Position numbers and translations under genes: made by a program. A stretch of 64,000 nucleotides of DNA from contig JACPDL010000003.1 of the NCBI GenBank assembly GCA_016184005.1, positions 1-64,000 of the forward strand. Direction: 5' to 3'. The notes below the pieces were generated by a model. The model saw only the letters and a program-made list of their open reading frames with translations. It ran no database searches and was not told where the DNA came from. This document shows, in pieces, positions 3,247 through 51,803 of this stretch; positions within the stretch are counted from its first letter, which is position 1; each line of letters opens with the position of its first letter. The stretch comes from Candidatus Aenigmatarchaeota archaeon. Lineage in GTDB: Archaea > Aenigmatarchaeota > Aenigmatarchaeia > GW2011-AR5.

Positions 3247-3440
3247 CCGGTTCCGATATCTTCAGAAAGCAGAGCTTTCTGAAATTCTCGAAATCCTTTG
3301 GATTTCGGAATCTCAGAGAAACTCCGTTTCCCTGAAGATCTCGAAGAAGTTCCACTTCTTCCAAGACAAAGCGGAACCTTCGATTCCACTTGTACAACAA
3401 AAACCAATGTTTTTGTTGCACCTCCGAATATCATAACCGA
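3246..3440. repeat. Five- to six-hairpin array with outer inverted ends
   Basis: Consecutive hairpins: TTCAGAAAGC-aga-GCTTTCTGAA, CGAAATCC-ttt-GGATTTCG, CAGAGAAAC-tcc-GTTTCCCTG (one mismatch), GAAGAAGT-tcc-ACTTCTTC, a decayed GGAA..TTCC, and CAACAAAAAC-caat-GTTTTTGTTG. Linkers are ATTCTC, GAATCT and GATCT. The whole array is framed by CGGTTCCGATATCTTC and GAATATCATAACCG, which partly pair. It fills most of the gap between the prepilin gene and the chimeric gene. Confidence 0.85.
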
Positions 3441-7496: not shown

Positions 7497-7550
7497 AGGC
7501 TTTTTCTTTTGGAAAAGAAAAACCCTTGGGAAAAAGAAAACAAAAAGAAA
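7497..7550. repeat. A/T-rich palindromic repeat (AAAGGC...CCCTTGGG type)
   Basis: AAAGGCTTTTTCTTTT, then GGAAAAGAAAAACCC and TTGGGAAAAAG. A near-identical unit recurs at 13090-13138, and a version interrupted by another hairpin at 7969-8035. The arms CTTTTTCTTTT and AAAAGAAAAAC pair. Lies directly after a stop codon. Confidence 0.6.
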
Positions 7551-11764: not shown

Positions 11765-12190
11765 ATGAAAGGCATAAGCACACTGATAGCTGCAGTCCTG
11801 CTAATAGCAGTAACACTCCTGATTTCTCTTATCGTGAGCACGTCGTTCACATCGCTTGTAAAGACCCAATCATCGACACTACAGACCCGCACAGGCGAGG
11901 CAGTCAACAACATAGAGGACGTATTCGTTGATGTTGCGTCCAACAGGGGAAGGGTCACTATTAGGAACTCCGGCCAGATAAGGGAAAATATAGTACGCGG
12001 CACAATGTTAAACGATACAGGCAGCCTGGCAACAGCACAGGATACTTTCCCCATTTCCATTGCAAAGGGTGCTCTCACAACACTGACTTTTGATACAACT
12101 ACGAATATTACATGCGCTAATTTCAACCGCGTCATAGTTACCACAGAATGCACTATAGCTACATTTGACAGGACCCCGAAAAACTGTTAG
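11765..12190 (+). CDS. Archaeal type IV pilin
   Basis: MKGISTLIAAVLLIAVTLLISLIV then the shared pilin core (VFVDVASNRGRVTIRNSGQ) and a C-terminal ECTIATFDRTPKNC. 141 residues. Its first 140 bases after the start are identical to 12221-12360 in the downstream duplicate, indicating a very recent duplication or gene-conversion event. Confidence 0.85.
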   Translation: MKGISTLIAAVLLIAVTLLISLIVSTSFTSLVKTQSSTLQTRTGEAVNNIEDVFVDVASNRGRVTIRNSGQIRENIVRGTMLNDTGSLATAQDTFPISIAKGALTTLTFDTTTNITCANFNRVIVTTECTIATFDRTPKNC

Positions 12191-12199
12191 GCGATAGCA

Positions 12200-12626
12200 A
12201 TGAATACCCCAAATCACCAGAAAGGCATAAGCACACTGATAGCTGCAGTCCTGCTAATAGCAGTAACACTCCTGATTTCTCTTATCGTGAGCACGTCGTT
12301 CACATCGCTTGTAAAGACCCAATCATCGACACTACAGACCCGCACAGGCGAGGCAGTCAAGCAGGGTACTTGTCAGAAACTCCGGACAGATACAGGAGAA
12401 CATAGTATCCGGCCAGATAGTGAACAAAACAGGCGTAGCTGGATCTTTGCTAACAACTGTGCCTCTGCCTATAGCAAGAGGCGATATTGTTTCTGTTGTT
12501 TTTAACACAAGTAGCAACGTTACAGTTAGTGCAGTTAATAACATAACTTGCGCCAACTTTGACCGCGTAATCATAACCACAGAATGCACTATTGTGACAT
12601 ACTCAAAAACACCTACAAACTGCTAA
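12200..12626 (+). pseudogene. Frameshifted duplicate pilin
   Basis: ATG at 12200 encodes MNTPNHQKGISTLIAAVLL, with bases 12221-12360 identical to 11768-11907. Immediately afterwards about 41 bases present in the paralogue are missing, and the homologous remainder (VRNSGQIQENIVSGQI, through TTECTIVTYSKTPTNC at 12626) continues in another frame. Neither half alone is a complete pilin. It could be a silent donor cassette, a decayed copy or an assembly collapse over the identical block; the downstream half is too different from the 11765 gene to be a simple assembly duplicate. Confidence 0.7.
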
Positions 12627-13084: not shown

Positions 13085-13138
13085 TCCCTAAAGGCTTTTC
13101 TTTTTAGGAAAAAGAAAACCCTTGGGAAAAGAAAAACA
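13085..13138. repeat. AAAGGC...CCCTTGGG palindromic repeat
   Basis: CCCTAAAGGCTTTTC, TTTTTAGGAAAAAG, AAAACCCTTGGGAAAAG: same unit as 7497-7550. It lies just after the 3' end of the SRP RNA, where its C/U-rich strand could also affect termination. Confidence 0.55.
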
Positions 13139-13146
13139 AGCAGTTA

Positions 13147-13947: not shown

Positions 13948-14453
13948 ATGCCAAAAGGAGCATTCCTACAGTATCCTATAGAAAGTGCAGTTGTTGATGC
14001 CGTTGCAGAAGCTGCAGACAGGCATAGACGTGCAAGAGATACAGTAAATGAACAACATCAGCTTAGTGCTTCTTGTGGTGTAGACTTAACGTCTCTCGAT
14101 TACGTTCCTACATTAACAGCTTATCCTCAGAGACATTGAAAACTGCTGTCTTTAGACAGCAGATGAAACACAATGTCTCTGGGATCACATCTTCTCACAA
14201 ACCACCGACTTTAGTCGGTGGTATATTAAGAAGATATGATATTGAAGAGATCAGAGAGGGTTCTCTAGAATCAGCTTTATCTGCCTATTTTGCAGTGGCA
14301 GGTACACCTGATTTTGTTGAGTCAGGCAGCGACTTTGTTGCAGTTGAAAATGCCCTCGGAAGGTATGGAAAATCTTTGAGAAGGAGATTCTTAGGTTTTC
14401 TTTCTGGAAGATATACAGTTGATGCACCAGCTCGTGTCGCAAGTGAGGCTTAG
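13948..14453 (+). pseudogene. Hypothetical gene split by a mobile element
   Basis: The 5' part encodes MPKGAFLQYPIESAVVDAV and onward to TLTAY; the 3' part begins IEEIREGSLESALSAYF and ends APARVASEA. Between them lies a 116-bp element (14125-14240) that shifts the frame. Removing exactly that element rejoins the two parts in frame as TLTAY-IEEIREG, a convincing continuous soluble protein of about 129 residues. Family not recognised. The 3' end overlaps the OB-fold gene on the other strand by 4 bases. Confidence 0.75.
14125..14240 (+). mobile_element. IS200/IS605-like non-autonomous element, copy A
   Basis: Begins CCTCAGAGACATTG after TTAT and ends AAGATATGAT. Structure: CAGAGACATT pairs with AATGTCTCTG around an inner CTGCTGTCT/AGACAGCAG hairpin, then ATCTTCT pairs with AGAAGAT around CCACCGACT/AGTCGGTGG. 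The last hairpin, an ACGACT/AGTCGT-like palindrome near an end, is typical of IS200/IS605 (TnpA/TnpB) elements, as is insertion 3' of a tetranucleotide without target duplication. No transposase is encoded. It interrupts the gene 13948-14453. Confidence 0.75.
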
Positions 14454-21580: not shown

Positions 21581-21697
21581 ATGATATGCTCTTGATACTC
21601 CCACGACTAAAGTCGTGGGTTTCTGAGAGCATGTCATCCCAACATTGTTTATGTAATATCTGCTGTCTGAAGACAGCAGTTTTAAGCAATGTTGTGG
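21581..21697 (-). mobile_element. IS200/IS605-like non-autonomous element, copy C
   Basis: On the minus strand it follows TTAT and reads CCACAACATTG...CTGCTGTCT-tc-AGACAGCAG...CAATGTTG, then ATGCTCT...CCCACGACT-tt-AGTCGTGGG...AGAGCATATCAT. Same ends and fold as copies A and B, but with different bases in both outer stems that remain paired (ATCTTCT/AGAAGAT in A versus ATGCTCT/AGAGCAT here; AGACATTG/CAATGTCT versus AACATTG/CAATGTT). Located just after the stop of the MgtC-like gene. Confidence 0.75.
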
Positions 21698-21708
21698 ATA
21701 AAGTTTTC

Positions 21709-27315: not shown

Positions 27316-27402
27316 TTTTACCAAGTTAACTTATGTTTCCCTGTTTTAATAGATAGTATGCGCCATCAACAGACATCATTTAAATGAAAGGATAATAATT
27401 AT

Positions 27403-27581
27403 CCTCAGAGACATTGAAAACTGCTGTCTTTTCTGCAAAGGACTTTTAAGAAGTCCTTTGCAGAAATCCAGGAGAGCTTCGCTCTCCATGAATTAGACAG
27501 CAGATGAAACACAATGTCTCTGGGATCACATCTTCTCACAAACCACCGACTTTAGTCGGTGGTATATTAAGAAGATATGAT
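27403..27581 (+). mobile_element. IS200/IS605-like element, copy B, carrying a hairpin module insert
   Basis: Follows TTAT and is identical to copy A over its whole length, except that 63 bases (27431-27493) are inserted in the loop of the CTGCTGTCT/AGACAGCAG hairpin. The insert consists of TTCTGCAAAGGACTT-ttaag-AAGTCCTTTGCAGAA and GGAGAGC-ttc-GCTCTCC joined by ATCCA. Intergenic, between the PHP gene and the Fic gene; this 300-base gap holds nothing else. Confidence 0.8.
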
Positions 27582-32380: not shown

Positions 32381-35300
32381 CGCCTGTATCTGTATTTTCT
32401 CAAAAAGCGCAGCTTTTTGGAATTCTCAAAATGCAGAGCATTTTGGAATCTCGAAAAAACTTTGTTTTTTCGAAGATCTCGGAGAAGCTTCGCTTCTCCC
32501 AAGATTACACCCTTCTGTTTTTTACGGATTTTTCTTTTAGGCTTCTTCTTTAGGCGGAAAAAGACCAGCATGCCCGCAAGAATCACGACCCCGGCAACAG
32601 CCAGGCTGGTAGGGGAAGCCGCAACAAGGCCTGTGGGACCTATAACCCCTGTCTGGTTTTTTTCAGCGGCAGTTTCGTTTGCAAGCGCCTGGCTTGCAGG
32701 CATGACGTTTGTTTTGTTTGTTGCAGGTGCGCCGTTTCCTGTTATATTTGCTGCAGATTTATGTGCCACGTTTGGCGTTGCATTGCTTAATGATGCATTA
32801 GTGAGATTTGGTTTTGCCTGCGGTGCAGGTCTCGCGCCCCCTCCACCGCCCGAATAGCCGCCTCCGGAAGCGGAAGGACTTGGGCTTGCTGGCGGGGTAA
32901 AGGTGAAGGCTATTGTGTTCTTGATTTCATTTCCTGATGTATCATTTGCATACAGCACCAGCGTATTCGAGCCCTGGGACGCTGTTATTGTGGTGTTCGT
33001 GCAGCCTATAAGTGAAACATTGGAATCGTTGTTAAGCCTGTACACGCATCCATCAGCGGCAATATTGTCACTGGCAGTGTAATTAAGCGGAATTGACGAT
33101 GAAGCGTATGTTGTGGATGCGACAGGAGACGTTATAGTCACATTAGGCGCCTGCGTGTCATTGCCTGCCGCCGCACCCGAGAATGAGGGCAGATAAAGCA
33201 CTGAGGCATTTGTTGTCATGTTGTAGCAGGGCTTGTTTGTGAAATCTGCATTGCATGCGCTTTCAATCCTTGTTATGTCAGGCGCGTCTCGTGTGCCATT
33301 GAGATAGAAGTAAATGGCATAAACCTGCGGGAATGTTATTTTTGCCGCGTAGCTGTTTTCAGGCAGGGCGCCGTTCATGTCTACCCACGCAAGCGAACCG
33401 AAGACGCCGCCGCTTTGACTGAAGGCGGACGACACACTTCCGGCGCCCTCTATGTCGTCTGCTATGCCCATCATATTAGACAGGTTGAGGGCTGATAAAT
33501 TGAAATCGACTATTTCTATAAGCGTGCCTGTGAGGTTGAACCTCAGCGTGTAATTCTTTGCGGCATCCAGCGCTGAAACGCTGATCTCATTATCCGTTTC
33601 GAGGAATGTCATCGTTATGTTCCTTGCGGAAAGGCTTGCACTCAGGGAACCGAAATAGGACGTTACATTCTCCCTTGCCTTTATGAAAACAAGCACTTCT
33701 TGCGTGGCATTGAAATTGCCGGCCAGGTCTGCCAAGTAGGCCTTCAGCGTATAATTTCCGTCGCTCAGGTCCAGCGTTTTTGCCCATTCTTTCCCGCCGC
33801 CCGACATGCTTTCGTTGACAAAGTTGAGCTCAAGGACGGCCGAGGAAAGAGGCTCGCTTGCCGTCATGTTTATTGTTATCCGGCTTGTTTCGTGCGTTGT
33901 TCCGTTCAAAGGCGTGGGAGAAACAAAGCCAGCATCCGGCGGTATGCGGTCTATTGATGCTGACATCATGAAAGAATTTGCAGTGTTGCCGGCGAGGTCT
34001 GTTGTTTCGAAGTAAAAGCTGATTGTAGTGTTGTGCTGCAATGAAGTGAGGTTTATAAGAATGCTGCAGTTCCTTGTTCCTGAAAGGCATGCCATGCTGG
34101 TATTTGTGAAGTTCTGCGCCGCCCCCCAATAGAGGTTTGCGCGTCGCAGGTGCATTTCGCTGTACGACAATGAAAAATTCTCATTCAGGCCCCGCATGAA
34201 GGTGTTGTTTGCCGGCGAGAGTGCCAGAATCACCGGAGGCCTTGTATCAAGCGTTATATTCAGCGTCTCAGTTGCCGTGTTGCCTGCAGAATCGTTTGCG
34301 TGGATCCTGTAGTTATAAGTCCCGTCATCAGCTGTCTTGTTGGCGGTGCATGACACCAATGTCCCGTTGTTCAGTTTCACCATCGTCTGGTTTGTCCCGT
34401 TCCATTCCAGGATGCAGGCAGAAATGTTTGTTAAGTCCGAAACACTCACATTGATAAAAATGTAGTTTCTGCTGACAAAAGAATTGTTTACATCTGCTGA
34501 AACAATGCTTATAGTTGGTTTTACTGTGTCAATTGTGAAAATGACTGTTTGCGATGTTGCGTTATTCCTGCTCTGATCGCTGCATGTTACATTAAGCGGA
34601 TAAGTTCCGTCAGATAGGTTGAGAATATATGAATTTTGAACCCCAGATGTTGCATTGCCTAAATTTATTTTAGTGCCATTAAGGTTGCGCGAGCATTCCT
34701 GCTCTAGATTAAGATCGTCAATAGCTGTAAAGTTGACGATTATGTTGTTTTTGTTCAGGAAACTATTGTTAACAGGCCCTGTCAAGTCGACCGATGGAGA
34801 AATATTGTCGACGAACTTGTCAGATAGCGTGAAACTTGAGGTGATGTTATAAGCTGTATTCGCTGAAAGGCTTGATGGAACAAGCCTTGCGGTCCACATT
34901 CCAGCCGAGGCGTTAATTGAAACATTGATATGATTAGTTCGACTCGTGGAAAAAACAGAATTTCCTGAAGTGTTGTAGAGGCCCAACTGAATTGATGCAT
35001 TGTCAATCCAGCCAATACTCATGCTCAGGAGCGAGTTGTTTGTTGTATTAATTCTATAATAAGAAATGCCTCCTAAAGTGTTGTTTGTGAAAAACACCTC
35101 GCCGAAAGGCAAGAAATTCGAAGCTATTGAATACTTTGCACTTCCACTTACGGTTGTTGGCAGGACCAATATGTTCCAGTAACCACTTACAGGGTTGGTG
35201 ACTTTTATCATTTCTTCTGTTTGCAGCACAGAAGCCGATGATTTTACAATAGCGCCTGATGGATCCAGAAGTTGTAAGTCGAGATTCTGGTGCACTGAGT

Positions 35301-42287: not shown

Positions 42288-42653
42288 ATGCCAACAGCAG
42301 GTCAGCTTGGACTTAGAAAAGGTGATGTTGTCCGTCTCGCTACAGTCTACAAAGAATTTGCCGCTTCAGATTTAGCAGGTAATCCGTATTCTGTCAGAAG
42401 ACTGATGGGCCTTGACATGACCGGAGGGCCAAGGGTTGAAGTCATAGAAACTCATGTTCGTCATCCAAGCGCTAAAGGATTCTATACTAGAGTTATGTAT
42501 ATTCTCAAAAAGCGCAGCTTTTTGGAATCTCGGAGAAGCTTCGCTTCTCCCAAGATAGATGACGACCCATATTCAGGAACATTATCAGAAGAGTTGGGAT
42601 ATATCTGGGAAAGGTTTGAAGGTTTCGTGGGACCTGTAGAAAGATTAAAGTGA
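42288..42653 (+). CDS. Hypothetical protein carrying an in-frame hairpin-array insertion
   Basis: 121 residues from ATG 42288; a GTG at 42249, correctly spaced from TTTATATA, would add 13 residues. GQLGLRKGDVVRLATVYKEF and LDMTGGPRVEVIETHVRHP look like a small beta-barrel. Residues LKKRSFLESRRSFASPKI are encoded by a hairpin array (42498-42557) and split the domain from its C-terminal half DDDPYSGTLSEELGYIWERF. The insert is a multiple of three. Family not recognised. Convergent with S27ae. Confidence 0.6.
   Translation: MPTAGQLGLRKGDVVRLATVYKEFAASDLAGNPYSVRRLMGLDMTGGPRVEVIETHVRHPSAKGFYTRVMYILKKRSFLESRRSFASPKIDDDPYSGTLSEELGYIWERFEGFVGPVERLK
42498..42557. repeat. Two-hairpin array inserted in frame in a coding region
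   Basis: TATATTCT, CAAAAAGC-gca-GCTTTTTG, GAATCTC, GGAGAAGC-ttc-GCTTCTCC, CAAGAT. This is the reverse complement of the array inside the 1859 gene and shares its ends. Confidence 0.88.
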
Positions 42654-43283: not shown

Positions 43284-43398
43284 CATCTTGGGAGAAGCTT
43301 CGCTTCTCCGAGATCTTCGGAGAAACTGAGTTTCTCCGAGATTCCGAAATCCTTTGGATTTCGAGAATTCCAAAAAGCTGCGCTTTTTGAGAATATTG
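43284..43398. repeat. Four-hairpin array within the rpoE-ribosomal operon
   Basis: ATCTTGG, GGAGAAGC-ttc-GCTTCTCC, CGGAGAAAC-tga-GTTTCTCCG, CGAAATCC-ttt-GGATTTCG, CAAAAAGC-tgc-GCTTTTTG, AGAATATTG. Linkers GAGATCTT, AGATTC and AGAATTC. It fills the gap between spt4 and rps24e, so it will be transcribed in the operon mRNA. Confidence 0.9.
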
Positions 43399-51751: not shown

Positions 51752-51803
51752 AAATCCCTTTTCTTTAGGAAAGAAAAGGTCTTTGTAAACCCCAAAAGAA
51801 ATT
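51752..51803. repeat. ACAAATCCCTTTTCTT hairpin repeat, copy 3
   Basis: AACAAATCCCTTTTCTTT-agg-AAAGAAAAGG, then TCTTTGTAAACCCC and AAAAGAAATTC. Same sequence as the unit inside the SRP RNA (12756-12803). Located directly upstream of the aminotransferase start. Confidence 0.8.

Follow-up and report, generated by a model that had tools for sequence, protein, structure and literature searches.

A 120-nt mobile element in the tiny genome of an uncultured archaeon appears to carry, in several of its copies, a second and smaller mobile element inside a hairpin loop. We consider the following account, taken as a whole, probable: the 120-nt element belongs to the IS200/IS605-type MITEs, pairs of short hairpins are mobile units that nest in one another and in the MITE, the filled copy (copy B) is a jump of an already filled lineage, and a TnpA moves these elements in trans. 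We have good confidence in two of these parts, the assignment of the 120-nt element as a non-autonomous IS200/IS605-type MITE and the mobility of the hairpin pairs as real units.

The window covers the first 64,000 nt of contig 4 in the source genome (G000; 919 kb, five contigs). This genome has an archaeal 23S rRNA, and one of its proteins, an H-PPase, has its nearest matches in Woesearchaeota, Nanoarchaeia and Micrarchaeota; this suggests, short of proof, a DPANN archaeon, and the H-PPase gene is widely shared. We compared the whole of G000 with the second genome of the genus (G001), for which contigs 1–60 were used, each up to its first 20 kb (676 kb). The two congeners have 524 kb in common at 90.8% identity, so empty sites could be read directly, and all indels of 18–1500 nt between them were collected (n = 189). 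Two further genomes that carry the MITE, G009 and G011, were included, the latter from another genus (g6). The 120-nt element family is present in 13 of the 19 genomes of the taxonomic family. Coordinates without a contig refer to the window and its forward strand unless marked (−); those of the form C5:60650 give contig and position, in G000 unless stated.

Copy A (14125–14240; the empty form, 116 nt) and copy B (27403–27581; the filled form) agree at every base, including the flanking TTAT (14121–14240 versus 27399–27581), save for 63 extra nucleotides in B, as the preliminary description had reported. The element proper runs from CC to GATATGAT, and the TTAT before each copy (27399–27402 for B) is retained target. 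The extra bases lie at CTT|TAG (in sequence, CTGCTGTCTT|TAGACAGCAG), the apex of the inner hairpin P2, in agreement with the earlier placement in the loop of an internal hairpin; three alignments are equivalent, with the insert at 27431–27493 or shifted by one base either way. The insert folds into two hairpins, a hairpin pair. Both had been called perfect, which holds for hairpin 1 (27430–27466), with a perfect 16-bp stem, and not for hairpin 2 (27466–27493; foot ATCC..GAAT), which has an internal loop on its 3' side. Hairpin 1 is perfect in B only: every other copy has a single bulged G there and reads CCTTTGAGAAA in place of CCTTTGCAGAAA, and one additional base in B turned the imperfect palindrome into a perfect one. 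A further empty copy in the window (21581–21701, −) belongs to a second subfamily.

The 120-nt element is built of four helices. The outer stem P1 (ATCC, bulge and stem, closed by GGAT) encloses P2, and a second outer stem, P3 (ATCA ... TGAT), encloses P4; the central AT of the element is common to P1 and P3. In copy B, the 5' arm of P1 (ATCC, a bulged T and CAGAGACATTG) lies at 27401–27416, the arms of P2 at 27421–27428 (CTGCTGTC) and 27496–27503, those of P3 at 27527–27536 and 27570–27581, and P4, the right-end hairpin with its TTTA apex, at 27542–27563. In 19 empty copies, drawn from several genera of the taxonomic family, pairing was kept in 91.8% of cells and two-sided changes occurred in 25 of 40 pairs. 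The covariation score was 0.437, compared with 0.159 in shuffled data, and slid controls reached no more than about 0.10; there were 119 doubly changed cells versus 38 when shuffled. All four helices show covariation; in the arms of P2, 98% of cells were paired, with compensatory changes in five of eight pairs. The element thus has a conserved hairpin near each end, P2 and P4. Directly 5' of each stands AAAC, invariant in the 19 elements (A20, A21, A22 and C23 before P2; 27418–27421 in B, at the 5' foot of that hairpin). Its position matches that of the guide motif in IS200/IS605 elements, by which analogy AAAC is a candidate guide motif.

The ends and empty sites support the IS200/IS605-like assignment made in the preliminary description. 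TTAT precedes all 42 full-length left ends in the two genomes, with random sequence upstream, although the search profile itself includes TTAT. Empty sites in G001 read TTAC|AACTT, TTAT|TTAGG, TTAT|GCTG, TTAT|AGCA and TTAT|TTTTG; insertion is 3' of TTAY, and the target stays on the left and is not duplicated. Copy A splits an ORF of 130 aa (13948–14453) at TTAT|ATTG, and the flanks joined without the element (CC..GATATGAT) read in frame. No Rfam family reached the gathering score in the window stretch, and one pattern scan of a genome-contig set and four scans of a viral-contig set gave no matches. Bulged hairpins, a T-rich target, the lack of target duplication and precise empty sites are together best fitted by single-strand transposition by a Y1 HUH transposase. 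The element would move as single-stranded DNA and enter 3' of TTAY, and would be defined by two CTTTAG-type hairpins (P2 and P4), each preceded by AAAC and each surrounded by an outer stem (P1 and P3).

That the hairpin modules are mobile, as proposed earlier, is borne out by the comparison with the congener, with the pair rather than the single hairpin as the unit. Among hairpin-rich insertions of 45–330 nt between G000 and G001 (n = 76), lengths peaked at exactly 54 nt (10 insertions) and exactly 108 nt (9 insertions), and both sizes (two hairpins and a nested pair, respectively) have clean empty sites in the other genome. Each hairpin of the 54-nt unit has a foot of 3–5 bp, a one-base bulge and a stem of 7–10 bp. 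Such bulged hairpins number 205 in G000, compared with 7 in a first-order Markov shuffle. Where adjacent hairpins differ in bulge side, the 5'-side bulge comes first and the 3'-side bulge second in 98 pairs (49 in G000, 42 in G001, and 4 and 3 in parts of G009 and G011); the reverse order was found in none. The 108-nt unit consists of one pair (m2+m3) placed at the AT junction of another (m1+m4), and unrelated loci hold 20 solo m1+m4 pairs and 22 m1[m2m3]m4 nests. In the window, m1+m4 pairs of 54 nt lie at 1877–1930 and 42501–42554 (−), a 108-nt nest of m2+m3 at the AT junction of m1+m4 at 43287–43394, a 108-nt nested pair missing at the same site in the congener at 32396–32503 (−), and an m2+m3 pair inside a longer array at 3284–3337 (−). 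Families of three or more copies account for 26 of the 43 hairpin insertions of 45–130 nt. Nesting was also seen next to P2, within the loop of P3 and at the middle of a pair, between its hairpins, and the largest nest spans C3:29710–30124.

Target and element often end alike. Identity of at least 2 nt between the two termini was seen in 40 of 64 hairpin insertions, compared with 12.8 after permutation (maximum 24 of 500), and we restrict the claim to this result; such microhomology could also come from deletions. A strict rule, in which the target dinucleotide equals both the internal junction and the right end, fits many pairs and was set aside, as the GA|..TG nested pair does not follow it. 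We propose that, in this archaeal lineage, pairs of 52–63 nt form the basic unit of mobility. They would enter short sites, and in many cases target and element would end in the same ~2 nt. They may often land at a junction or loop of an existing element, whose stems are left unbroken.

Other repeated or inserted sequences were noted alongside the pairs. A different family of small palindromic repeats (TTTTTCTTTTGGAAAAGAAAAACCCTTGGGAAAAAG..), unlike the bulged pairs, occurs at 7501–7543, 13097–13139 and 51758–51800. An exact direct repeat of 141 nt, its copies 453 nt apart (11767–11907 and 12220–12360), probably lies within a repetitive coding region. The match to archaeal 23S rRNA (L110:1922–5832, which is G000 C5:61922–65832) extends over 3.9 kb against a model of 2987 positions, which suggests that this rRNA holds about 0.9 kb of inserted sequence.

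The filled loop of copy B is one case among several. In G000, the P2 loop is filled in B and at C5:60650, C4:315520, C4:134737, C4:362990, C2:17507, C1:49627, C4:235359, C3:29710 and C5:51340, and a different pair fills it at C4:316207; in G001 it is filled at C27:5980, C26:8780 and other loci. With about a dozen filled copies besides B in the two genomes, the filled loop is far from a chance event. Members of the B insert family also occupy P4-type loops (C2:31577, C4:235359, C3:29710, C5:46140, and contigs C30 and C36 of G001). All detected copies of this family sit in hairpin loops, at CTT|TAG or a close equivalent, and none elsewhere; only 57 of the 376 CTTTAG sites in G000 are hairpin apices. 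On the question, raised earlier, of whether filled loops always carry modules with the same ends, inserts of the B family do share their ends. In G011, a pair unrelated to that of B occupies the corresponding site in P2, and inserts are also present at the P1/P3 junction and in the P4 loop. Empty loops are present in all genera examined. These two observations disfavor a filled, B-type ancestor from which A arose by deletion.

A second MITE family, with the right end GAGGATTT(T)CAT, was observed at C5:46126–46300 and at G001 C36:8726–8896, and in both copies the right-hand loop is filled by the hairpin-pair family found in B.

The B insert would be a mobile element in its own right, smaller than its host and broadly alike in design, with two adjacent bulged hairpins with the 5'-side bulge first and the 3'-side bulge second. 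Several filled elements occupy clean TTAT empty sites (at C5:60650, for example, G001 reads TTAT|TTTTGCA), which shows that an element can jump with its loop filled. A filled element would remain mobile and take its passenger along, and nesting would in this way build larger elements, up to ~400 nt. We propose that B arose as a jump of such a filled lineage.

A possible but rather unlikely alternative is that a pair entered a loop a single time, and that recombination or gene conversion of the inner hairpin then carried it from one subfamily to another. The B insert is 98% identical to that at C4:134737, an element of another subfamily, and the backbones at C4:134737 and C4:362990 are chimeric. 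However, the B insert family occupies at least five stem sequences across both genomes, and the stems GCTGTC, CACGAC, CTACCGAC, ATCAAC and CCAGTAAC share only CTT..TAG; P2 and P4 are both hit. Recombination may explain the spread within the CTGCTGTC stem family, not all cases.

A fresh insertion of a pair into the P2 loop after B was in place, in line with the recent arrival suggested by the preliminary description, seems improbable to us. It would account for the identity of A and B outside the insert, and the pairs are demonstrably mobile. However, the same backbone as that of B occurs in filled form at C5:60650 and C4:315520 and in the congener at C27:5980 and C26:8780, and filled elements transpose whole. 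G001 has nothing that corresponds to the surroundings of B, so the order of events cannot be read there. The simplest reading of copy B is that a lineage filled at an earlier time jumped independently.

Still less likely is that the hairpins were made or copied by templated synthesis at loops, through replication slippage or template switching and with no transposition, the second mechanism offered in the preliminary description. Tandem duplications inside single element copies, of P4 (30 nt) and of P2, were seen in G001 (C9:15108–15257 and C32:7076–7228), as expected of slippage at hairpins, and the sole sign of templating in B itself is the one-base correction of hairpin 1 to a perfect palindrome. 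Against this stand multi-copy families with fixed ends, to one of which the insert belongs, at unrelated loci and with exact 54- and 108-nt units and clean empty sites, and we consider templated synthesis disfavored and not needed. The least likely reading, that the hairpins function as RNA structures or as terminators and that deletions account for the differences in presence and absence, would suit their strong intergenic bias (27 of 205 bulged hairpins lie inside ORFs, though ORFs cover 74% of the genome) but not the occurrence of one family at many unrelated loci with an exact unit length, the nesting of hairpins in one another and in the MITE, or the lack of an Rfam match at the gathering score.

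We infer that the MITE and the pairs are both moved in trans by an IS200-type TnpA, a Y1 HUH enzyme of which G000 has copies truncated where contigs end. It is the likeliest mover of the MITE and the pairs, a proposal that we rate at about even chances; that one enzyme serves both is a guess because the pairs are without an AAAC-type guide. Y1_Tnp was detected at three contig ends of G000 and in three genes of G001, and the ends and target of these elements differ from those of the MITE; the host IS200 of G000 has a TTTAA-type site. No autonomous element with exactly the MITE's ends was found in G000 or G001, no Y1_Tnp was detected in G009 or G011, though both carry the MITE, and TnpB was absent from G000. 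Neither an IS110 transposase (PF01548) nor a serine recombinase (PF00239) was matched in G000, G001, G009 or G011. An IS200 of genome G004 (locus L207) was considered as the autonomous parent, with ATATGAT 18 nt after its right hairpin, and was dropped, as TnpA relatives suggest an end nearer the hairpin (TT?AC). Contig breaks of the G000 assembly fall at an element of IS200 type (with ends AATTCCACC.. and a TTTAA-type site; loci L054–L063), left ends of which open contigs C1, C3 and C5, while right ends with the last 35 TnpA codons close C3 and C4 and open C2.

The MITE resembles IS200/IS605 elements and their MITEs in its small subterminal hairpins, its insertion 3' of a short T-rich target that is kept on the left and not duplicated, and its 5' motif. 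In IS608 and ISDra2, the guide motif lies just 5' of the hairpin foot, and the IS608 target is TTAC (PMC5934647, PMC6006769). Unlike these, the archaeal element has outer stems that enclose the hairpins, the AT at its cleavage site pairs with a central GGAT, its hairpin loops hold nested mobile pairs, and no linked autonomous copy was found. The pairs recall REPINs with TnpA_REP/RAYT, in which inverted hairpin units move as doublets (PMC3116915, PMC6006769): both are mobile doublets, intergenic and present in many copies, with compensatory changes that keep the structure. They differ from REPINs in having feet of AT-C/T types rather than GTAG/GTGG, two independently folding hairpins of inverted polarity (98 to 0) rather than one long hairpin, and very diverse stems within one genome.

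Likenesses outside prokaryotes are by description. Double-hairpin elements of fungal (Allomyces) mitochondrial DNA, as cited in PMC7218506, are tiny, optional, dispersed and presumed mobile, and so are the repetitive hairpin elements of sponge mitochondria (PMC2800124). Such elements share with the archaeal pairs an optional presence, two adjacent hairpins and a length of tens of nucleotides, and we claim no common membership; they are mitochondrial, and the passages of these sources that treat them do not describe loop-specific nesting. The archaeal pairs are a variant within known kinds of mobile DNA, and their loop-targeted nesting is unusual. Cyanobacterial small dispersed repeats, the subject of Elhai et al. 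2008, are likewise said to be very small and thought to be mobile; we liken them to the pairs by description only. More tentatively, and with some doubt, the pairs may represent a class of mobile DNA of only ~54–63 nt in which two hairpins are bulged on opposite sides, with some families that would enter only single-stranded hairpin apices (CTT|NAG).

With 54 nt and two bulged hairpins, the pairs are a concrete example of a minimal mobile unit in archaea, for which only IS200-type TnpA has been reported among the TnpA subclasses (PMC6006769) and no REP-type system with a transposase class of its own is reported. Two questions become testable with them: the lower size limit of transposable elements, and the use of single-stranded loops as preferred targets. 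Many hairpins of the window would thereby be explained as mobile DNA rather than as regulatory signals. Hairpin loops can be safe landing sites within other mobile elements, with the passengers carried along, and, if the pairs do form such a loop-entering class, the mobile elements of this archaeal family would grow by hairpin-in-loop nesting while still mobile.
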